From Pseudomonadota bacterium (GTDB taxonomy: Bacteria > Pseudomonadota > Gammaproteobacteria > Steroidobacterales > Steroidobacteraceae): a stretch of 64,000 nucleotides of DNA. A program made the position numbers and the translations under genes. The stretch lies in the NCBI GenBank assembly GCA_018240525.1, contig JAFEFN010000003.1:248001-312000 (forward strand), written 5' to 3'. Shown here in pieces: positions 6,764 through 37,698 of this stretch. The notes beneath the pieces were generated by a model. It was not told the origin of the DNA, did not search any database, and worked only from the letters and a program-made list of their open reading frames with translations. The first letter of the stretch is position 1. Every line of letters starts with the position of its first letter.

Positions 6764-7579
6764 TCACTCCGGCGCCAGCTTCGGATTCTTCATGTCGTAG
6801 ACCAGGCTCAGGGTCGCCAGCGAGTCGTTCTTGCCGGAACCGGCCGGCGGGCTGCTGTTGCTGACGATCTGGTAGCCGGCCGCGAGCGCCAGGTGCGTGG
6901 ACATCTTCACCTGCAGGGACACGGTGGCGTTGGTGCGGGTATTGTCCTTGCTGGAGAGCACGCCGACGCCGGCGAGGATCTTGGTCGAGGCGTTGAAGTT
7001 GTGCTCGTAGTTGGCCGCGCCGTTGAAGGCGACGCTGTGCTCCTGCTCGTAGGGGATGCCGGTGTTCGGATCGTAGTCGAGCCGCTCGATCACCCCGCCG
7101 ATGTCGTCCTTGACCAGGTATTCCTTGCGCAGCCACAGGTAGCCGACGCCGCCCTGCACGGTGAGCTTGGTGTTGTCGTCGTTGTAGATCTGGTAGCCGA
7201 TACCGGTGGTCAGCGCGTCCTGGTAGGCGAAGCCCGAGAAGCGGTCGTCGCTGTACCCGGCGCCGAGGTAGCCGTAGAACTTCGGGGTGAAGTTGTAGTT
7301 GGCCTGGCCGTGGACGGTGAAGGCCTGCGCCGTGGTCTCGCCCTTGGTCGAGCCGTACAGGCCCTCGGTGCCGAACAGGAACTTCCAGTCGTTCCAGACA
7401 TGGGCGACGTGGAACAGCGCGTTGCCGGCGCTGTTGTCGGTGTTGCCGCCGGTCTTGGAATAGCCCAGCAGCGCGCGCATCGACCAGTTGGGGTCGCCCT
7501 CGTACGGGGCGTCCTCGGCATGCGCCGCTGCCGCAAACGCCGTGGCCGCCAAGAACCCGAATACCGCTGTCTGCCGCAT
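6764..7579 (-). CDS. DUF481 family outer-membrane protein (YdiY-like)
   Basis: 271-residue exported protein. A signal peptide of about 21 residues ends AHA|ED. The rest alternates hydrophobic and aromatic residues as in a beta barrel (WSMRALLGYSKTGGNTD, ANYNFTPKFYGYLGAGY, LALAAGYQIV), matching the DUF481 'salt-induced outer membrane protein' family. The final residues (LAPE) do not end in the typical barrel aromatic. Substrate and function are unknown. Transcribed alone, convergent with smpB. Confidence 0.85.
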   Translation of the reverse strand: MRQTAVFGFLAATAFAAAAHAEDAPYEGDPNWSMRALLGYSKTGGNTDNSAGNALFHVAHVWNDWKFLFGTEGLYGSTKGETTAQAFTVHGQANYNFTPKFYGYLGAGYSDDRFSGFAYQDALTTGIGYQIYNDDNTKLTVQGGVGYLWLRKEYLVKDDIGGVIERLDYDPNTGIPYEQEHSVAFNGAANYEHNFNASTKILAGVGVLSSKDNTRTNATVSLQVKMSTHLALAAGYQIVSNSSPPAGSGKNDSLATLSLVYDMKNPKLAPE

Positions 7580-7780: not shown

Positions 7781-9730
7781 TCAGATCCGGCACATCTTGA
7801 TGTCCGGGTCCACGCGGATCCACTGCTTCGCCCGCCACACTTCCTTGTTCCAGCTCAGCGCATGCAGCAGCTGCTCGACCAGCGGGATGGGCATGACCGT
7901 GGTCACGTCGGCGCCGACATGGGCGATGCGGTCGACCGTCACGCGCGTGCACGGCGGGTTCAGCGTGGCGACGGCGGCCGCGTTGGTCATGGTGAGCACC
8001 ACCACGTGATCGACGTAGCCGACCGCGGCAATGCCGAAGACCCCGACGCCGAGGCCCAGGCGCGGGATCTGCACGGCAAGGACGGTGCCGGAGACCCCCG
8101 GGCTGGATAGCGTCGGTTGCTCGACTTGCGCCGGGGCGTCGTCGAAGGCCCCGTTCGAATCGGTCTGCGAGCTCGCGCTCGCCAGCGTCCCTGCGCCGCC
8201 GGCGAACTGGAATTTCGCGTGGAAGTGGTGCGCGGCGTGGTTGCCGGCGAGGGCGATCTTGGCGAGGAAGTCGGCACCGAGCTGCACCACGAGCGGGACG
8301 CCGCCCACGATCACGGGGATGTTGAAGCGGACCGGCACGTGCGCGACCGGGATGCTCACCCCACCGTTCCCGCCCTGCCCCAGGCGCGCCACCAGTTCCA
8401 GGTCGAGAGTGCCCTTCAGGTCCTTGAAGTTCACCGAAGTCCCGGCATTGCTGCCCCCGTTGAGCTTGATGGCGGCCTGGAGCGCGGCGCGTTCCAGGTC
8501 CGCGCGGGCACGGAAGCGCACGTCAAGGTTCTCGGCGACCATCAGGAAGAGGTTGAGCAGCTCGTCGTTGCGCGCCGACTCCGCCCGCGCCTTGGCGCGC
8601 GCCGCCTCCGCCAGGGTCTCGGCGTGGCGGTAGTCGGAGATGGCGATGAGCTTCTGCTGCTCGTCCTCGCTCAGGAGAGTGCTGAGCGCCTGCGGGTTCA
8701 TCCCGCTCAGCTGCGGGTCGCCGCCGCGCCCGGCCTTGAGCGCCTCGATCTGCGCGATCTGTGTCTCCAGGTGCTCGACACGGTCGTAGGACTTCTTCGC
8801 GTCCTGCTGGGCATGCCACTGCTCCTCGACGAAGGCGTAGAAGCGGTCGGCCGCCACGCCCTGGAGCTCCGAGCTCCCGTTGCTGCCGCTCGGCTGATTC
8901 TCGTCCGCCTTCCTGCCCTGCAACTCCAGGTGCAGCGTGTTCTGCGAGACCTTGTAGCCCATGGAGAACTGGAAGCCGGCCACGGTGCCGGTGTAGCCGT
9001 TGCCGGTGGCGGCGACCATGTCGGACTCGGCGGTCTGCTCCATGGTCTGGTTGCCCGGATCGACCGGCTGCTCCGCCCCGGCCGGCCCGCCCTGCGGAGG
9101 CGGCTCCGGATCGGGCCCGTAGCGCACCGGCACGAAACCGCTGGGCCGCGCGGCGCGCGTGATGGTGCGCGGCGGCGGCTCCTGGATGCGCGGCTTGTAG
9201 ACCCCGTAGGCATTGCCGAAGTCAACCGGGGTGGCGAACTCGATGTCGGCCCGCGTCAGCGCCTCGCTGAGCGGCACCGCGCTGGTGTGCACCACGGTGC
9301 CGTCCTCGAAGATCCCGAGCCGGTCGATGCGGCGGATGGCGATGCCCCAGATCCACACGATCTTGCCCGGCTGCAGCCTCTGCACCACCGGGTCCGAGCT
9401 GGTGAAGACGAAGTCGCTGCCGTCGGCATTCACGGAACGCAGGGCGCGCAGCGCCTCCTCGCGGCTGACGGGCACCACGTCCTTGCTCCACTCCACCTCG
9501 AACTTGGGCGGCTTGACCTCCTGCACGTTCTGCAGGTAGGTGCGCAGCGCGGCCTGATCGGCACCAAATACGAAAGTGCCGCGTAGCGCCGTGCTCGCCG
9601 AGGCGGGTGCCGCCAGCGGCGCGCTGCCCGCCGCCGCCGGTGTGCTGGACGGATGGCGGCCGCACCCGTGCAGGCCCAGCGCTGCGATGAGGCCGCCCGC
9701 GAGGATCCCCAACACTGCATGACGCTTCAT
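7781..9730 (-). CDS. large uncharacterised lipoprotein with central coiled coil
   Basis: 649 residues from the ATG at 9730, which has GAGAGG just upstream; a longer frame opens at 9757. A signal peptide ends in a lipobox (LHGC, about residue 23). An Ala/Pro-rich linker leads into an N-terminal globular region (about 45-260), a helical coiled-coil stretch rich in Glu/Ala/Arg (about 305-430), and a beta-rich C-terminal region (about 440-640) with several Gly/Val strands. I do not recognise a family. It is the last gene of a four-gene envelope operon, 27 bases after the OmpA-like gene, and would be anchored in a membrane facing the periplasm. Confidence 0.7.
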   Translation of the reverse strand: MKRHAVLGILAGGLIAALGLHGCGRHPSSTPAAAGSAPLAAPASASTALRGTFVFGADQAALRTYLQNVQEVKPPKFEVEWSKDVVPVSREEALRALRSVNADGSDFVFTSSDPVVQRLQPGKIVWIWGIAIRRIDRLGIFEDGTVVHTSAVPLSEALTRADIEFATPVDFGNAYGVYKPRIQEPPPRTITRAARPSGFVPVRYGPDPEPPPQGGPAGAEQPVDPGNQTMEQTAESDMVAATGNGYTGTVAGFQFSMGYKVSQNTLHLELQGRKADENQPSGSNGSSELQGVAADRFYAFVEEQWHAQQDAKKSYDRVEHLETQIAQIEALKAGRGGDPQLSGMNPQALSTLLSEDEQQKLIAISDYRHAETLAEAARAKARAESARNDELLNLFLMVAENLDVRFRARADLERAALQAAIKLNGGSNAGTSVNFKDLKGTLDLELVARLGQGGNGGVSIPVAHVPVRFNIPVIVGGVPLVVQLGADFLAKIALAGNHAAHHFHAKFQFAGGAGTLASASSQTDSNGAFDDAPAQVEQPTLSSPGVSGTVLAVQIPRLGLGVGVFGIAAVGYVDHVVVLTMTNAAAVATLNPPCTRVTVDRIAHVGADVTTVMPIPLVEQLLHALSWNKEVWRAKQWIRVDPDIKMCRI

Positions 9731-9757
9731 TCGCCCTCTCCGCTCAACTGCGTGCAA

Positions 9758-10996
9758 TTAGTGCTTGGCGCAAGGCCGCGCCAGCTCGACGCGCCGGTTG
9801 TGGGCGCGACCCTCGACGGTGGCATTGCTGTCGACCGGGCGCGTCAGCCCGAAGCCCTTCGCGGTGAGCTTACCGGCCGGGATGCCGTAGCGGCCGACGA
9901 GCGCCTGGCGCACCGCGTTGGCGCGGGCCTCGGACAGCTTCTGGTTGTACTCGGCCGAGCCGATGTTGTCGGTGTGCCCCTCGATGGTGAGGGTCGCCTC
10001 CGGGCTGCCCTTCACCAGCGCCGCCACCTGCTGCAGCATGGGCTCGGACTCCTCCAGCAGCACCGCGCTGCCGGAACTGAAGTAGATCCCGTGCAGCTCG
10101 ACGTGGCAGGCACTGCCCCCGAGCTGCGCCGCCAGGGGCGGGCCCGTGGCGACCTGGCCGCCGGCCGAGTCGGTCGGCCAGTCGATGCGGGTGATGCGCG
10201 TGCTCGCCGGTCCGAAGCTCCAGTGCAGTGTCACCGGCCAGTCCGGATTGTCGAGCCACCATACTTCCGCCTTCTGCGGCGCGCCGCCGCTGAAGGAGAA
10301 GGTCCCCGCGGCGTGCACCGCCGGCAGGTTCACGCGTGTGCCATTCACCAGCACCGCCACCGGCACGTCCGTGGTCTCGACCCGGTGCAGCGAGCCGCGG
10401 TAGTAGGTGCGCGCAGAGCCGAACGCCATCCCGAACATCTGCCCGAGGTCCGGCAACACCGGGTTCTTGTCGGGCGCCGGTGCGGGCTTGGTCGCAGCGG
10501 CCTTGGCCGGAGCCGCCACGATCCCCGCAAAGGCGTTGTTCAGGCTGCCCGCGTAGGGCCCGAAGACGAAGGGAACCTCGCCCCCGCCCTTGAGCCCCGT
10601 GAGCACCTTGCGGGAGGTCTCGGTGAAGGTCTGGCCGCCGTAGCTCTCCGGGTCGGTGCTCGCGTACAGCAGGGTCATGCGCGAGGAGTTTTCCAGATCC
10701 GCGCGCTGCACCTGCCGGGGCCAGCGCAGGCGATTCGCGATCTTCTCTGCCTCGGCATTGCCCGCGGCACTGACGCGGATCATGTAGCGCAGGCCCTCCG
10801 GACCCATGGACTGCAGCGCATAGTGATCCTCGGTGTCCATGAAGCCGAAGTCCTGGTTGCCGGCCGTCACGGAAGCGAACACCGTCGCGGTGATCACGAG
10901 TCCCGGGCGCGGCTTGATGTCAGCCGCGTCCAGGGCCAGCGCGGGCGCCCCGCAGGCGAGCGCCAGCCAGGCCAGGCGCCGCACGAATCGGCTCAC
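9758..10996 (-). CDS. OmpA-family protein with C-terminal peptidoglycan-binding domain
   Basis: 412-residue exported protein with an N-terminal signal peptide (cleavage after about ALA at 20-22). The first 270 residues are an unrecognised domain, with a Pro/Ala/Lys linker near 165-180. The C-terminal 130 residues are an OmpA-like domain: IYFSSGSAVLL, TIEGHTDNIGS, YNQKLSEARANAVRQAL, and GFGLTRPVDSN followed by NRRVELA. Such domains bind diaminopimelate in peptidoglycan. The GTG start overlaps the upstream stop as GTGA. Probably tethers an envelope assembly to the cell wall. Confidence 0.85.
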   Translation of the reverse strand: MSRFVRRLAWLALACGAPALALDAADIKPRPGLVITATVFASVTAGNQDFGFMDTEDHYALQSMGPEGLRYMIRVSAAGNAEAEKIANRLRWPRQVQRADLENSSRMTLLYASTDPESYGGQTFTETSRKVLTGLKGGGEVPFVFGPYAGSLNNAFAGIVAAPAKAAATKPAPAPDKNPVLPDLGQMFGMAFGSARTYYRGSLHRVETTDVPVAVLVNGTRVNLPAVHAAGTFSFSGGAPQKAEVWWLDNPDWPVTLHWSFGPASTRITRIDWPTDSAGGQVATGPPLAAQLGGSACHVELHGIYFSSGSAVLLEESEPMLQQVAALVKGSPEATLTIEGHTDNIGSAEYNQKLSEARANAVRQALVGRYGIPAGKLTAKGFGLTRPVDSNATVEGRAHNRRVELARPCAKH

Positions 10997-11754
10997 TCGC
11001 GTTCGCCGAGCTTGCGCTCCGTGAAGCCCTGGGGAATGGCGAACTTGTCTGCCGGCAGCGACTGCGCCTGAGCCGAGGTCAGCACGTGCTCATCGCCCCC
11101 GGAGATGCGCGCTCTGGCCGGGAAGCCATTCATCTGGCCAAGGCGGGTGATGTGCTCGGCGTGTGGGGCCAGCATGGGCACGCTGGCAATGATCTGGCCC
11201 GCGGTGGCGGTCGCCTTCTTCAGCGAGGTTTCGAGTTCCGCGCCGCCGGGCAGGCTGGAGCTGGGCACCACGCAGAACTGCCCGAAGGGCTGGCCACTCT
11301 TCTGCTCCTCCCAGATCTTGCAGGCGTACGAGCCGACGTGGTCGGTGCGACCCGTGTCGGTGAAGGTGTACTGGGTGCTCGCGGACTTCTGCTTCATCTG
11401 CGCCATGCGCGCTTCCATCATCGCCCGCTTCTCCGGCGGTAGGCTGGCGATCATCGCTTCCATCTTGTTCGCGCTTGCACCGGCAAACTCGCCGACGCTT
11501 GCCGAGTCGACGCGCGTATAGGTGCGCCCGGCCGGGTCGATCTCCCACACCACCCCGTCACGCACCAGCGTCGTGCCGGTGATGCCGCCGTGGGCATCCA
11601 TGCGGTCGATACGCAGCATCCCGTCCTGTGCATAGTAGGTCTCGAAGGGCTGCGTCTTGCCGGCCGCGTCCTTGGCATCCATCTTCAGCACCGAGCCGGC
11701 GTGCGCAACCAGGCTGAACAGCAAGGCGAGAGTGCCGGCGATAATCGTGCGCAT
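10993..11754 (-). CDS. exported DUF4412-like protein
   Basis: 253 residues with a clear signal peptide (cleavage after VAHA). The mature part resembles DUF4412-type proteins: KPFETYYAQDGMLRIDR-like strands, then VWEIDPAGRTYTRVD, a helical Met/Lys-rich segment (EKRAMMEARMAQMKQ), and a Cys pair (YACKIWEE and FCVVPSS) that could form a disulfide. Function unknown. GGAG lies just before the ATG. It precedes the OmpA-like gene with a 4-base overlap, so the two are translationally coupled. Confidence 0.7.
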   Translation of the reverse strand: MRTIIAGTLALLFSLVAHAGSVLKMDAKDAAGKTQPFETYYAQDGMLRIDRMDAHGGITGTTLVRDGVVWEIDPAGRTYTRVDSASVGEFAGASANKMEAMIASLPPEKRAMMEARMAQMKQKSASTQYTFTDTGRTDHVGSYACKIWEEQKSGQPFGQFCVVPSSSLPGGAELETSLKKATATAGQIIASVPMLAPHAEHITRLGQMNGFPARARISGGDEHVLTSAQAQSLPADKFAIPQGFTERKLGERE

Positions 11755-11792
11755 CGTCTTCTCCGTTGTGTCTTGTCTTGATCCGTCGAGGT

Positions 11793-12923
11793 TCAGATCT
11801 TGGCCGCCACCGCCACCACCAGTGCCTGGGCGCGCGCCCTGTCGACAAAGCGGGAATTGACGGAGATCTCCACGTCCTGCTTGACCAGGACGTAGTTCAT
11901 GCCGTCATCGGAGACCGACTCGGCCGGGTCGGCGGCCGCGGCACTCGTGGCCGCATTGGACTGGTGCTCGGACTCCTCCTGCGCCGGGAGACCTGGCACC
12001 ACGTCGTGCGCGATCTGCCCCACCGAACCGTAAGCGAGGTTGCTCACGTGGCGGTCGGAGCGCCACTGGTAGTAGCCGTTGCGCCAGCGGACCTTGACGT
12101 CGTACTCCAGCGGCACGGTGCCGGGCGTGCGCGGCATCGCGTACGTGCAGGAGTCATGGCCGTGCCCGGCCGGGTCGGCACCGAGCGGCCCGACGATCGC
12201 CTCGACCTCGGTCCGCGTGAGCAGTGAGCAGACGTCCCGCGGCTGTGGCCGTGTCTTATCCAGAGCGAGCGCCGCGCCCACCGCGGCATTGCCGTTCAGA
12301 GGCAGCGGCTTGTCCATGCGCTTGAAAGCGGCATCGAGCAAAGGGGCCACCTGACGCAGCGACAGGCGCGTGCCGGTGAAGTCGATGACCAGCAGCTGGT
12401 CGCCCCGCAGGGCATTGAAGATGCAGCAGTTCATCGCTGTGAGCGAGGCCTCGTCCCACTCCCCGCTGAGCTCGGTGCCATCGTCGAGCTGGAATCTGTT
12501 GTGGACCGTCTTGGCCATTTCCTCGTTGCCACGGCCGCCCTTGAGCTGCCCCTTGACCATCTGCGTGAGCGAGTACTCCTGCTGGCCGCCCTCGAAGGTC
12601 GCCGTCAGGGTGAGGTAACGGAAGTTCTTGGTCTCATACATGCAGTCAGAGCCGGAGGCGTGCGGGCCCATGCCCCCACTACCGACGCGGAAGGGCGGGA
12701 CGGCCAGGGGCTCACCCAGCACCGCCTCGACCTCCTTCGGGTCGAGCAGGCGGCAGGGATCTTGCGCATCGCTGCTCTCCTCCTCGGCGTTCGAGGAGGC
12801 GAACGGGGGCGGAGGCGGGGCGGCAGAGCCCCGGGGGGCCTCCTGCTTGTGGCTGCACGCACCGAGCACGGCGCCCAGGAGCGTCGTGAGGAAGACCGCG
12901 CGTAAACGCGAGTGGCCAGGCAT
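11793..12923 (-). CDS. lipoprotein with two tandem DUF3558-like domains
   Basis: 376 residues. A signal peptide ends LGAC, giving a lipidated Cys near residue 23, followed by a Pro/Ser-rich linker. Two related domains follow: residues about 55-215 start DPCRLLDPKEVEAVLG and have a later SDCMYE; residues about 230-375 start DVCSLLTRTEVEAIVG and have a later DSCTYA. The C-LL-EVEA-G and C-Y pattern resembles DUF3558-type lipoproteins. This suggests an internal duplication. First gene of the four-gene envelope operon; GGAGG precedes the ATG. Divergent from ssrA. Confidence 0.7.
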   Translation of the reverse strand: MPGHSRLRAVFLTTLLGAVLGACSHKQEAPRGSAAPPPPPFASSNAEEESSDAQDPCRLLDPKEVEAVLGEPLAVPPFRVGSGGMGPHASGSDCMYETKNFRYLTLTATFEGGQQEYSLTQMVKGQLKGGRGNEEMAKTVHNRFQLDDGTELSGEWDEASLTAMNCCIFNALRGDQLLVIDFTGTRLSLRQVAPLLDAAFKRMDKPLPLNGNAAVGAALALDKTRPQPRDVCSLLTRTEVEAIVGPLGADPAGHGHDSCTYAMPRTPGTVPLEYDVKVRWRNGYYQWRSDRHVSNLAYGSVGQIAHDVVPGLPAQEESEHQSNAATSAAAADPAESVSDDGMNYVLVKQDVEISVNSRFVDRARAQALVVAVAAKI

Positions 12924-13022
12924 CTTCTGACACCTCCCTGCCGAGGTTTGACCTTAGCCCAATTTTTTCAGCGCTGCCAGAGACCTGGGCCTTGCACCCT
13001 CGGGCACCGGCCCCATTTGAGG

Positions 13023-13028
13023 TATGCT
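13023..13028 (+). promoter_or_regulatory. candidate -10 element of ssrA
   Basis: TATGCT lies 15 bases before the mature 5' end of tmRNA, consistent with a short leader removed by RNase P. No convincing -35 is seen 17 bases upstream, so the promoter is only half supported. Confidence 0.4.
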
Positions 13029-13131
13029 GAAGGCTGATCCTGAGGGGGCGACCGGTTTCGACGTGGGTTGCGAACCTTCAGGGGCGTGCCGAGGTGTAGG
13101 GCCCTCGTAAAACACTCTGCAAATCATAGTT

Positions 13132-13164
13132 GCCAACGACGACAACTACGCTCTAGCTGCTTAA
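13132..13164 (+). other. tmRNA tag reading frame (ANDDNYALAA)
   Basis: Resume codon GCC, then AAC GAC GAC AAC TAC GCT CTA GCT GCT and TAA. It encodes ANDDNYALAA; with the alanine carried by tmRNA the full tag is A plus this. The E. coli tag is AANDENYALAA, so only one acidic residue differs and the ALAA degron read by ClpXP and Prc is intact. Confidence 0.93.
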
Positions 13165-13378
13165 TCGCAGTTGACCTCTGACCGGTTCGTGCCTGTGCGA
13201 CTGAATCAGGGGACGCGTTCACAGGATCGCGCTCCGGCGTGCGACAGGCCGGTTGCGTTAAGAGTTACTGTCCGCTGGCGCTGCGTCTTCCCTGCTGATC
13301 GGGTAGCGCAGCGTGAGAACTAAAGACCAGCTACGTACGTAGATCCTGAAGTCTAGGACTTGCGGACGGGGGTTCGAT

Positions 13379-13665
13379 CAATGGGTCGCACCAGGCCGAG
13401 AGGCCTGGCAGACAACGGAGCTCACATCGGTGAAACCTGCACCGCCCGCAAGGCGGCATGGCAACGCCGAGGGGTAGGAAGAGGGCCAACTTCAGGCCTG
13501 CCCTGTAGAGACTCATAGACCCGCCGAGGAACTGCGGTTCCGGGGCGGGCACTAGGATCCGGCGCAGAAGATGCGTGCCGGATAACACGCTCCGCATCCA
13601 CCGGCCCTCACCGGCCGGCGGATGAAGGCATAGTCCAGCCCGCGGCGAAAGCCACGGACGTGCTG
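13379..13665 (+). other. group I intron in ssrA (287 nt, no ORF)
   Basis: The upstream exon ends in T13378 and the intron ends in G13665, as group I introns require. P1 pairs 13375-13379 with 13384-13388, with U13378-G13385 as the splice-site wobble. P2 is a hairpin (13391-13397/13402-13408, GAGA loop). P3 pairs CGGAGC 13416-13421 with GCTCCG 13589-13594. P4 pairs 13427-13432 with 13465-13470. P7 pairs 13508-13513 (bulged A13509) with AGTCC 13632-13636. P8 is 13595-13624 and P9 has GGC-GAAA-GCC at 13644-13653. Two extra hairpins between P7 and P3 resemble P7.1/P7.2 of subgroup IA. No homing endonuclease fits, so it is probably a self-splicing ribozyme without its own mobility gene. Confidence 0.9.
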
Positions 13666-13688
13666 TCCCCCCGCCTCCACCACTTGAG

Positions 13689-13716
13689 GGATCCCGGCCC
13701 GCACGGGCCGGGATCC
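13689..13716 (+). terminator. ssrA terminator hairpin
   Basis: A perfect 12-bp stem (13689-13700 with 13705-13716) with loop GCAC starts six bases after the tmRNA CCA end. The following bases are pyrimidine-rich (TCTCCGCTTC) rather than a T-run. The gene on the other side runs convergently and ends at 13742, so it may serve both strands. Confidence 0.6.
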
Positions 13717-13741
13717 TCTCCGCTTCGGTCACACCGCGCGC

Positions 13742-33670: not shown

Positions 33671-33697
33671 TTGCCCGCGCGGTGCGGCTGTTACAAT
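33671..33697 (+). promoter_or_regulatory. candidate mlaA promoter
   Basis: TTGCCC (33671-33676), 15 bases, TACAAT (33692-33697), ending 28 bases before the mlaA ATG. The -10 is good; the spacer is short. Confidence 0.45.
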
Positions 33698-33725
33698 GGC
33701 CGCCACCTTCCCTGGCGGACAATCC

Positions 33726-34565
33726 ATGCGAGCGACGACCCTGCGGACCGCGGTGCTGACGGCGTGCCTGGCTGCTTTCCTGGGCGGCTGCGCGAGCCTT
33801 CCCAAGGACGCGCAGCGCAGCGCGCGCGACCCGTGGGAGCGCATGAACCGCGCCACCTACAAGTTCAACGACGCGCTCGACCGCGGCATCGTCAAGCCCG
33901 TCGCCAAGGGCTACGTCAAGGTCACCCCGCAGCCGGTGCGCACCGGGGTCACCAACTTCTTCGACAACCTCGAGACGCCGATCAGCATGGTCAACGACCT
34001 GCTGCAGTGGCAGATCCGGGACTTCTTCAACGACACCGCGCGGCTGGTGCTCAACACCACCCTGGGCATCGGCGGCCTGCTCGACCCGGCCACGCGCGCC
34101 GGCCTGGACAAGAACGACCGCGACTTCGGGCAGACCCTCGGCAAGTGGGGCCTCAAGAGCGGCCCGTACGTGGTGCTGCCGGTGCTCGGGCCCTCGGACG
34201 TGCGCGATGCCGCCGGGCGCCTGGCGGACAACTACTCCACCCCGCGCGCCTACATCAGCGACCCGTGGGTGCAGTGGGGCTTGTGGGCGGCGCGCGGCAT
34301 CGATACCCGCTCACGCCTGCTCTACACCGACCAGATCGTGCAGAGCTCCTACGACCCCTACGCGTTCGTGCGCAACGCCTACCTGCAGCACCGCGACTTC
34401 AAGGTCTCCGGAGGCGGCGCGGGCGCCGGCGAGAACCAGCAGGAACAGCAGCTGCTGGATGAGGCCGACCAGCTGGAGAAGGAAAATGCGGCCGGCGCCC
34501 AGCCGCCGCCCGCCCCGGCACCGAAGCCCGACGAGACGCCCGCCTCGACACCACCGCCGAAGTAG
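33726..34565 (+). CDS. mlaA: MlaA, outer-membrane phospholipid-removing lipoprotein
   Basis: Ring-shaped outer-membrane lipoprotein that extracts phospholipids from the outer leaflet and passes them to MlaC. 279 residues from ATG 33726. Lipobox LGGC, Cys near 23; then DPWERMNRATYKFND, FFDNLETPISMVNDLLQ, and LKSGPYVVLPVLGPSDVRDAAG. The C-terminal 50 residues are a Gln/Glu then Pro-rich tail that is longer than in E. coli. Tail-to-tail with mlaFEDCB. Confidence 0.95.
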   Translation: MRATTLRTAVLTACLAAFLGGCASLPKDAQRSARDPWERMNRATYKFNDALDRGIVKPVAKGYVKVTPQPVRTGVTNFFDNLETPISMVNDLLQWQIRDFFNDTARLVLNTTLGIGGLLDPATRAGLDKNDRDFGQTLGKWGLKSGPYVVLPVLGPSDVRDAAGRLADNYSTPRAYISDPWVQWGLWAARGIDTRSRLLYTDQIVQSSYDPYAFVRNAYLQHRDFKVSGGGAGAGENQQEQQLLDEADQLEKENAAGAQPPPAPAPKPDETPASTPPPK

Positions 34566-34574
34566 CGCGGCGCT

Positions 34575-34910
34575 TCAGACCCCGCGGTCCAGCAGTTCCG
34601 TGAGATCGCTGATGCGCGCCAGCGCCGCGAAGCCTGCGGGCAGGCCGGTGAAGCGCAGCTGCTGGCCGGTCGCTTTGGCCGCCGCCAGCCAGTCGAGCAG
34701 CACGGCAAGCCCTGCGCTGTCGGCGGCACTCACGCCCGCGCAGTCCATCACCAGGGGCGCCTGCCGCCCGGCCGCGGACAGGACGGCGATGCCGGCGAGC
34801 CGCGCGGCGCGCGCCGTGGCGAAGGTGAGCGGACCGCGCGCCCGCAGCTGCCCGGCCGCGGGCGCCTCGAGCACGAACCCGCCGGTGGATGCGACGGGCG
34901 TGTCGTTCAC
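34575..34910 (-). CDS. mlaB: MlaB, STAS-domain subunit of the Mla transporter
   Basis: Small cytosolic STAS protein that stabilises the MlaF ATPase. 111 residues, with the STAS core LVMDCAGVSAADSAGLAVLLDWL containing the conserved Ser/Asp region. The GTG start at 34910 overlaps the mlaC stop as GTGA; no ATG fits. Last gene of mlaFEDCB. Confidence 0.9.
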   Translation of the reverse strand: MNDTPVASTGGFVLEAPAAGQLRARGPLTFATARAARLAGIAVLSAAGRQAPLVMDCAGVSAADSAGLAVLLDWLAAAKATGQQLRFTGLPAGFAALARISDLTELLDRGV

Positions 34911-35560
34911 TTGGAGGTCTTGCCGATCGCGCTCGGCTTCTCGCCGGCATCCAGCCGCTTGATGACCGCATCCAGGCCCTGGGCTTCGATCTGCGGCCGG
35001 AAGTCCTCGCGGTAGCTGTTGACGTAGGAGATGCCGTCGATCACCACGTCCCAGGCCTTCCAGCCCTCCGCGGTCCTGCGCATGTAGTAGTTCACGGCCA
35101 CGCGGTCGCCGCTGTCGCGCTTGACCTCGGTGCGCACCGTGGCGCGCGCCGCGGTCGGGTCCGGCGTGGTCGGGTAGATCTTCAGCCGGTCGGCGGTGAA
35201 GTCGGTGAGCGCCGAGCCGTAGTTGTTCAGCAGTGACTTGTAGAAGGCATCGATGAAACGCTTCCTCTGGTCCGGGGTGGCGGTGCGCCAGTACTGGCCG
35301 AGCACCAGCTGCGCGGAGAACTCGCTGTCGAAGTGCGGCAGCAGGTACTTGTTGACCAGTGCGCTCACCTTGGAGGGGTCGGCGCGGTAGGAGGCGCGGT
35401 CCTTGTCCAGGTCGGCGAGCATGCCCTGCGCGGCCTCCTGGATGACGTCCGAGGGGCTCTCGGGGCTGGCCGCGGCGGCCGGCGCCGCCGGAGCCGTGGC
35501 CTGGGCGTGCGCCAGGGGGCTCGCCAGCATCACCGCCACCATGAAACTTGCGTATCTCAT
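34907..35560 (-). CDS. mlaC: MlaC, periplasmic phospholipid-binding protein
   Basis: Shuttles phospholipids between MlaA and MlaFEDB. 217 residues with a signal peptide (AHAQA, about 19), a short Ala/Pro linker, and the Ttg2D/MlaC domain: VSALVNKYLLPHFDSEFSAQLVLGQYWRTATPDQRKRF-type region and a YYMRRTAEGWKAWDVVIDG core. The ATG overlaps the mlaD stop as ATGA. Confidence 0.95.
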   Translation of the reverse strand: MRYASFMVAVMLASPLAHAQATAPAAPAAAASPESPSDVIQEAAQGMLADLDKDRASYRADPSKVSALVNKYLLPHFDSEFSAQLVLGQYWRTATPDQRKRFIDAFYKSLLNNYGSALTDFTADRLKIYPTTPDPTAARATVRTEVKRDSGDRVAVNYYMRRTAEGWKAWDVVIDGISYVNSYREDFRPQIEAQGLDAVIKRLDAGEKPSAIGKTSK

Positions 35561-36084
35561 TGCTTCGACTCCGTGCTCTTGTCGTCCGATTTCCCGGCCG
35601 CCTTGTCGCCCGTCTCGCTCCTGCTGCTGGCGTAGTTGGCAAAGAACTTGTTGATGAGGTTCTCGAGCACCAGCGCCGACTGGGTCTGCTCGATGACGCT
35701 GCCCTGCTTGAGGAAGGTGTCCGAACCGCCCGGGCTCAGCCCGATGTACTTGCCGCCGAGCAGCCCCTGCGTCTGGATGGACGCGAAGCTGTCGTCGGGA
35801 ATCTGACTGTAGCCGTCGGCGATGCGCATGTGCACCTGTGCCTTGTAGTCCTTGAGGTTGTAGGTGATGCGGGTCACGACGCCCACGTTCACCCCGGACA
35901 TGGCCACCGGCGAGCCCACCTTCAGGTCCCCGATGTTGTCGAACTCCGCGCTGACCACGTAGCCCTTGGCCTTGCTGAGCTTCAGCCCGCTGGCCGGCAG
36001 CTGCGTCGTCAGGAACAGCAGCGCCGCGAAGCCCAGCAGCACGAACAGGCCGGTTCCTATCTCTAGTGTTCGATTGGGGCGCAT
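35557..36084 (-). CDS. mlaD: MlaD, MCE-domain subunit
   Basis: Hexameric inner-membrane-anchored lipid tunnel. 175 residues: one N-terminal transmembrane helix (about 10-28), then the MCE domain (about 38-118, VSAEFDNIGDLKVGSPVAMSG), GGKYIGLSPGG, and a charged Ser/Lys/Asp-rich tail. Fourteen bases after mlaE. Confidence 0.96.
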   Translation of the reverse strand: MRPNRTLEIGTGLFVLLGFAALLFLTTQLPASGLKLSKAKGYVVSAEFDNIGDLKVGSPVAMSGVNVGVVTRITYNLKDYKAQVHMRIADGYSQIPDDSFASIQTQGLLGGKYIGLSPGGSDTFLKQGSVIEQTQSALVLENLINKFFANYASSRSETGDKAAGKSDDKSTESKQ

Positions 36085-36097
36085 AGGGAAGAGTTCC

Positions 36098-36853
36098 TTA
36101 CTTCAGGAATGCCGCGGTCAGCACATAATCCAGCAACAGCACCAGCACCGAGGAGGCCACCACGGTGCGCGTGGTGGCGAGCCCGACGCCGGCGGCGGTC
36201 CGTTCGGCAGTGTAGCCCTCGTAGACGGCGATGAGGCTGCAGGCGATGCCGAACACGAGGCCCTTGGTGAGGCCCTCGGTGACCTCGCGCAGCCCGACCG
36301 CGCCCTGCGTCTGCGACCAGAACACGCCCTTGTCGACGCCCATCTGCTGTACGCCGACGAGCTGCGCGCCGTACAGGCCGATCACGCCGAAGATCGCCAC
36401 CAGCAGCGGCATCGCGATCACGCCGCCGAGGAAGCGGGGCGCGGCGACGTAGCGCATGGGATCCACCGCCATGATCTCCATCGCGGTGAGCTGGTCGGTC
36501 GCGCGCATCAGGCCGATTTCCGAGGTGAGCGCAGTGCCGGCGCGGCCGGCGAAGAGCAGCGCGGTGATCACGGGTGCAAGTTCCTTGAGCAGGCTCAGGG
36601 CGGCGGCGCTGCCGAGAACGTCCTCCGAGCCGAAGCGCTGCAGCAGCGTGTAGCCCTGCAGACCGAGCACCATACCGACGAACAGTCCCGCCAGCATCAT
36701 GATGATGAGCGAGCGCGCCCCGGTGTTGTACACCTGGGCGATGATCAGCCGCGGCCGGCCGAGTGCCGGCACGCACTGGGCGACCAGTCGCAGCAGGAAC
36801 AGCGTCACCGCACCGACCTTGCGCACCCCGCCGACGAGCTGCCCCTCGCTCAC
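36098..36853 (-). CDS. mlaE: MlaE, permease subunit
   Basis: Integral membrane subunit of the Mla ABC transporter. 251 residues with five or six hydrophobic segments and the family sequences LIIMMLAGLFVGMVLGLQGY, AGRAGTALTSEIGLMRATDQ and MAVDPMRYVAAPR. The GTG start overlaps the mlaF stop as GTGA and has GGAGG upstream. Confidence 0.96.
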   Translation of the reverse strand: MSEGQLVGGVRKVGAVTLFLLRLVAQCVPALGRPRLIIAQVYNTGARSLIIMMLAGLFVGMVLGLQGYTLLQRFGSEDVLGSAAALSLLKELAPVITALLFAGRAGTALTSEIGLMRATDQLTAMEIMAVDPMRYVAAPRFLGGVIAMPLLVAIFGVIGLYGAQLVGVQQMGVDKGVFWSQTQGAVGLREVTEGLTKGLVFGIACSLIAVYEGYTAERTAAGVGLATTRTVVASSVLVLLLDYVLTAAFLK

Positions 36854-37698
36854 GCATCCTCCGCGGACAGAAGCTGCGCCAGGTAGTCCGGCGCGGGGTA
36901 GGCGAACGGCACCGGCCCCTCGGCGCTGCCGGTCATGAACTGACGCACCGCGGCCGCACTGCTCGCCTTCAGTTCCTGGGGCGTGCCCGCGGCGGCCACC
37001 TTGCCCGCCGAGAGCAGGAAGGTGTCGTCGGCGATGGAGCACAGTTCCTGCACGTCGTGGCTGACCACGATGCTGGTGATCCCGAGGGCCTGGTTCATCT
37101 GCTTGATGAGCCGCTGGATGACCCCCAGGGAGATCGGATCCAGTCCCACGAACGGTTCGTCGTAGATGAGCACCTCGGGGTCCATGACGATCGCGCGCGC
37201 CAGCGCCACGCGTCGCGCCATGCCGCCGGAGAGCTCGGCGGGCATCAGCGACGCGGCACCGCGCAGGCCCACCGCCTGCAGCTTGGTCAGCACCAGCTTG
37301 CGGATGAGCGGCTCGGGCAGGTCGGTGTGCTCGCGCACGGGGAAGGCGACGTTCTCGAACACGTCGAGGTCGGTGAGCAGCGCCCCGTTCTGGAACAGCA
37401 TGCCCACGCGCTGGCGCATCGCGTAGATCTCACGCGTGTCCAGGTTCGCCAGGTCGGCGCCGAAGGCGAGCACCTGGCCGCGGTCGGCGCGGATCTGTGC
37501 GGTGAGCAGGCGCAAGAGCGTCGTCTTGCCCGTGCCGCTCGGCCCCATGATCGCCGTGATGCGGCCGCGGCGCGCCCCGAGGCTCAGCCCGGCGAAGATG
37601 GGGCGCCCACCGACCGCGTAGTCCACGTCGCGCACGTCGAACACGACGTCGGCGGCGCCGGCGGGCGCCGCCGTAGTGCCGGTGGCGGGGCTGCTCAC
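36850..37698 (-). CDS. mlaF: MlaF, ATPase subunit
   Basis: ABC ATPase driving phospholipid transport. 282 residues: Walker A GPSGTGKTT (about 53-61), Q-loop MLFQNGALL, signature ELSGGMARRVALARA, Walker B LIYDEPFVGLDP, His switch VVSHD, and a C-terminal extension typical of MlaF. GTG start. First gene of mlaFEDCB, with a 16-base gap from the aldolase gene, which may therefore share the transcript. Confidence 0.96.
   Translation of the reverse strand: MSSPATGTTAAPAGAADVVFDVRDVDYAVGGRPIFAGLSLGARRGRITAIMGPSGTGKTTLLRLLTAQIRADRGQVLAFGADLANLDTREIYAMRQRVGMLFQNGALLTDLDVFENVAFPVREHTDLPEPLIRKLVLTKLQAVGLRGAASLMPAELSGGMARRVALARAIVMDPEVLIYDEPFVGLDPISLGVIQRLIKQMNQALGITSIVVSHDVQELCSIADDTFLLSAGKVAAAGTPQELKASSAAAVRQFMTGSAEGPVPFAYPAPDYLAQLLSAEDA

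Follow-up and report, generated by a model that had tools for sequence, protein, structure and literature searches.

Four genes, designated A, B, C and D, lie on one strand of the window, i.e. the whole 64,000-nt stretch of DNA that was analysed (from genome G000; all coordinates are positions within this window), and are surrounded by genes such as recN and smpB (Table 1). The intergenic gaps are 38 bp (A/B), -4 bp (B/C) and 27 bp (C/D). These coordinates confirm the layout given in the original prediction, that of four same-strand open reading frames with short gaps and a GTGA overlap. In all four genes GC3 (0.87-0.93) is well above GC2 (0.47-0.53), as expected of coding sequence. Relatives of A, B and C were found in the same order in another genome of the genus, G016, with 54, 55 and 65% identity, respectively; these three are therefore real genes.

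Table 1. Features of the four-gene cluster and of its surroundings in the window
Feature	Position	Strand	Description
A	11793..12923	(-)	376 aa, lipoprotein, two DUF3558 stretches
B	10993..11754	(-)	253 aa, exported DUF4412 protein
GTGA overlap	10993..10996	(-)	C start codon / B stop codon, 4 bp
C	9758..10996	(-)	412 aa, GTG start, new N-terminal region and OmpA domain
D	7781..9730	(-)	649 aa, lipoprotein without matched family
Upstream interval	12924-13741		818 bp with no convincing gene; separates A from its upstream neighbour
Downstream gene	6764-7579	(-)	codes for an exported protein of 271 aa that resembles DUF481 by eye; begins 201 bp after D
Mla genes	33696-37698		apparent chromosomal lipid-transport genes MlaA, B, C, D, E and F, read from translations; ~24 kb from the cluster

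Scans of the cluster for promoters and terminators produced nothing above chance as compared with shuffled sequences. In the three relatives described below, the gene immediately downstream of D does not accompany the set.

Protein A passes the curated Pfam cut-off for DUF3558 (PF12079; 37 bits, 4.5e-9, cut-off 34.1 bits) in two stretches, each of which opens with the motif C-x-LL-x(3)-EVEA; the two halves of the protein align to each other around this motif (hhalign P 3.4e-4). The G016 orthologue of A scores under the same cut-off (26.3 bits). The lipobox of A, LGAC, is canonical (Cys23), and a Ser at position +2 predicts location in the outer membrane. Protein B is a marginal member of DUF4412 (PF14371; 21.8 bits, 1.8e-4, cut-off 21.6 bits); its counterpart in genome G778 is a clear one (31.4 bits, 2.1e-7), and the G016 protein scores 21.0 bits. 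B has a signal peptide (...LVAHA|GS) that looks to be of the ordinary secretory type, and two conserved cysteines (145 and 161). Thus, A and B belong to their families with scores at or just over the cut-off. Neither DUF3558 nor DUF4412 has a known function; a literature search found nothing on DUF4412 and nothing relevant on DUF3558.

Protein C, with a signal that also appears to be of the ordinary secretory type, contains a C-terminal OmpA domain (PF00691; 80 bits, 1.8e-22, residues 305-401, Pfam cut-off 27.2 bits). Residues D343, N351 and R358 of this domain are invariant in six family members, and their spacing (8 and 7) is identical to that of Asp576, Asn584 and Arg591, the residues by which PorE contacts peptidoglycan (PMC7192894). 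Since this triad is present with the PorE spacing and is invariant in these members, C likely holds the cell wall by binding peptidoglycan through its OmpA domain. The N-terminal region (about residues 25-290) is new: it matches no Pfam family and nothing in any other library searched. A scan of genome contigs with full-length C was dominated by OmpA domains from unrelated proteins. A role in defence was considered and rejected, as the PADLOC matches covered only the OmpA/MotB part of C.

Searches of Pfam, PHROGs and PADLOC found no family for protein D, and NCBIfam gave no significant match. Its lipobox, LHGC (Cys23), is atypical; three relatives of D have a canonical one. The protein can be divided into an N-terminal domain (about residues 75-195), a helical insert (about 286-424) and a beta-rich C-terminal part with Cys594 and Cys647; these domains may resemble large surface proteins, rich in beta structure, from other phyla. 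The helical insert is missing from two D paralogues in G778 and is, therefore, probably lineage-specific.

The protein descriptions given in the original prediction (a duplicated-domain lipoprotein, an exported DUF4412-like protein, an OmpA-like peptidoglycan binder with a novel N-terminal domain and a 649-residue lipoprotein with a beta-rich C-terminus) agree with these results. The exception is the coiled coil of D: it corresponds to the insert just mentioned and rests on helix prediction at pLDDT 50-60. The claim that all four proteins are located in the envelope is likewise borne out by predicted export signals (lipoboxes in A and D, secretory signals in B and C), and the claim that none has a described function stands.

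To determine how the genes are distributed, we searched every available genome of the genus (58 in total). D was detected in five of them (G000, G009, G016, G027 and G778) and C also in five (G000, G016, G027, G778 and G764); many of the 58 genomes are incomplete, among them G009 (63% complete) and G764 (83%), where C is cut by a contig end. The two proteins share four genomes (hypergeometric p = 5.8e-5, or p = 5.4e-4 without the query genome, both values ignoring phylogeny). The profile rows included G016, G009 and G027 for D and G016 and G027 for C; G778 and G764 were in neither profile. Strict relatives of A occur in two genomes (G000 and G016), and in the genus search the Pfam DUF4412 profile matched only G778 and G016. 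Distant relatives of B found elsewhere in the order are located outside any such cluster. D was not found in 320 other genomes of the class, in plasmids or in viral contigs; a match in locus L004 (36% identity over 77 aa) was dismissed as a chance similarity to another kind of protein (profile E 2.1). Outside the genus, the N-terminal region of C was matched in the class sample by G133 only, partially and with A, B and D not beside it, and in the phylum sample by no genome.

In each of the four genomes that have both C and D, C is linked to D and to a DUF4412-type gene; the arrangement differs from genome to genome. The order in the window is A-B-C-D. In G016 (locus L046, with MFS and GDPD genes around it) A-B-C occupy one strand and are followed by a gene X and by D, convergent on the opposite strand; gene X (7613-8413 of L046) codes for a 266-aa protein without a Pfam family. 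In G027 (L048, among 2-oxoglutarate dehydrogenase genes) D'-C'-B' share one strand, with D' cut by a contig end. In G778 (L149, beside metX-like and protein kinase genes) the four genes run A'-C'-B'-D' on a single strand and are separated by -4, 14 and 16 bp, the A'/C' overlap being ATGA.

Assignments in the two latter genomes require a comment. In G778, A' is a lipoprotein with an EVEA-type motif that misses the DUF3558 cut-off. D' of this genome is also truncated at a contig end; the D profile, to whose rows G778 does not contribute, matches it at 2.8e-4. In G027, the similarity of B' and D' to B and D is not significant when these sequences are left out of the profile, and B' is a putative DUF4412 protein; position is part of the identification of both. 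The linkage evidence, thus, leans partly on position and weak similarity.

These neighbourhoods modify the original prediction of an operon. Same-strand location with short gaps holds in the window; it does not hold in G016, where D is convergent, or in G009, where D is alone on an 18-kb contig, and G778 has two additional copies of D away from C. On independent occurrence in relatives, which had been named as an argument against the grouping, the C-D pair stands up overall, if imperfectly: C and D are linked in four of the five genomes that carry each of them, and there are cases of D without C (G009), extra D (G778) and a second B (G016). The analysis of gene-set co-occurrence that had been proposed showed the set to be non-randomly linked in four species, with differing order and location.

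The two extra D copies of G778 reside in paralogous four-gene cassettes (L150, 7370-11380; L151, 4391-8254), in each of which a D-family lipoprotein gene precedes three genes whose products, exported or membrane proteins, measure about 222-237, 326 and 147-154 aa; those of the L150 set have no Pfam family. Existence of these parallel three-gene sets indicates that D also works in other company.

Linkage that survives changes of order and place is typical of functionally cooperating genes. As order, strand and place of the four genes vary while the linkage remains, a functional module is favoured over chance neighbours or inherited order. We assign a probability of about one half (0.52) to the reading that the four genes make up one functional envelope module, a peptidoglycan-tethered outer-membrane lipoprotein complex. 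The linkage conserved despite the shuffling makes this finding a little stronger than the reading of a single sequence from which it started; that the set forms one assembly, as had been proposed, is what we infer. In such a module all four proteins would be exported. A and D would sit in the outer membrane through their lipid anchors, C would bridge the assembly to the cell wall, with the OmpA domain on peptidoglycan and the new N-terminal region on its partners, and B could act in the periplasm as a soluble helper, for instance as a chaperone or carrier. Outer-membrane sorting, contacts between the proteins and this division of labour are, again, what we infer.

Two rival explanations deny any joint function. 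If the four genes were unrelated genes for exported proteins, adjacent by chance or through merely inherited order, one would expect cases such as D without C in G009 and the extra D copies in G778, as well as DUF4412 and OmpA proteins that are found alone. Inherited order, however, cannot explain linkage that persists in four genomes with differing order and location, and the C-D linkage and co-occurrence largely refute chance; we regard this explanation as very unlikely. The set could also be cargo of a mobile island, whose exported proteins stay together because they are transferred jointly and not because they function jointly. Patchy occurrence (5 of 58 genomes) and differing genomic locations are consistent with such a history, but no integrase was seen among the genes adjoining the window cluster, the tRNA-Ser gene is 15 kb away and the GC content of the cluster region (0.66-0.70) is that of its surroundings, which leaves this explanation with hardly better than a slim chance.

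Other alternatives accept a joint function and differ on what it is. The set might handle lipids or lipoproteins, with D as an MCE-like beta-barrel for hydrophobic cargo, B as a LolA/LolB-like half-barrel carrier, C as a wall pin and A as an accessory lipoprotein. Repeated MCE matches, none significant, fall in one and the same stretch of the D N-terminal domain and range from 0.025 to 0.42: NCBIfam Mce (0.025, in two of five members), PDB Mce chain 8fed_D (0.044 and 0.42) and Pfam MlaD (PF02470; 0.16); comparison with MlaD of the window gave P 0.005, also not significant. These sub-threshold signals suggest that the domain may be MCE-like; YajC, CusF and LRR proteins, however, match it similarly or better. 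For B, LolA/LolB chains recur among the weak matches of the structural model (mLolB, Z 6.0 over 45 residues; Foldseek, VIA), suggesting a possibly LolA-like fold, with nothing in the Foldseek search under 0.001 (best E 0.09). Both models are single-sequence predictions, poor for B (pLDDT 50.5) and unusable for D (pLDDT 37.8). The cluster also lacks an ABC permease or ATPase, and the genome has an apparent Mla operon of its own. We consider lipid or lipoprotein handling unlikely; its narrower version, a device without its own ABC transporter in which D as an MCE-like outer-membrane lipoprotein and B as a LolA-like carrier would be held to the cell wall by C as an OmpA-domain scaffold, is distinctly improbable. 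Equally improbable, in our opinion, is an envelope sensor or regulator in which A, D and C would watch the outer membrane-to-wall distance or envelope stress and signal inward. Lipoproteins together with a peptidoglycan binder would suit a sensor of distance or stress, and the set is accessory and variable across the genus; against this, the four loci have no consistently linked inner-membrane receptor, kinase, anti-sigma factor or regulator.

The preferred reading, a peptidoglycan-tethered lipoprotein complex, can be compared with characterized envelope systems, among which TraAB and PorE are the closest working analogies. TraA/TraB mediate outer membrane exchange in Myxococcus; TraB combines an OmpA domain with an N-terminal region that is still unexplained, and its gene overlaps that of its partner by 4 bp (PMC3325183). 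C resembles TraB in being an apparently exported protein with an OmpA domain (peptidoglycan binding is presumed), a long N-terminal region without a family and a 4-bp overlap with the gene of an envelope protein. Still, C is not a member of the TraB family (NF033763; 73.9 vs 700 bits, residues 274-405 only), and it is accompanied by two lipoproteins and a DUF4412 protein; no PA14, Cys-repeat or MYXO-CTERM partner was seen. PorE anchors the type IX secretion system to the wall through an OmpA_C domain (PMC7192894), in which the Asp/Asn/Arg contact triad is the same as in C. PorE differs from C in being a lipoprotein and in carrying TPR and WD40 domains, neither of which Pfam detects in C. The set has no linked T9SS genes, and C does not belong to the PorE family (NF052230; 54.4 vs 600 bits, OmpA part only).

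Pal of the Tol-Pal system, a third point of comparison, is linked to the outer membrane and, like C, has a peptidoglycan-binding OmpA domain. C is not a Pal (TIGR02802; 71.4 vs 125 bits) and no tol genes adjoin it. Pal has an N-terminal lipoprotein Cys; C has no conserved lipobox Cys, the G016 orthologue having none at this place. Assemblies of the envelope in which an OmpA-domain partner provides the hold on peptidoglycan, such as TraAB, T9SS and T6SS, have repeatedly proved to be real machines. The cluster is an undescribed set of genes with this outline, and no library searched contains a match to its D family or to the N-terminal domain of C. Through its linkage, reshuffled yet persistent, three DUF-type or orphan families acquire a common context that can be tested.

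One more locus in G016 (L049, 6850-8651) contains the second DUF4412 gene and, on the opposite strand, a single-domain DUF3558-like gene, next to a gene for a 1844-aa Rhs-type repeat protein. Here, A-type and B-type proteins are linked a second time.
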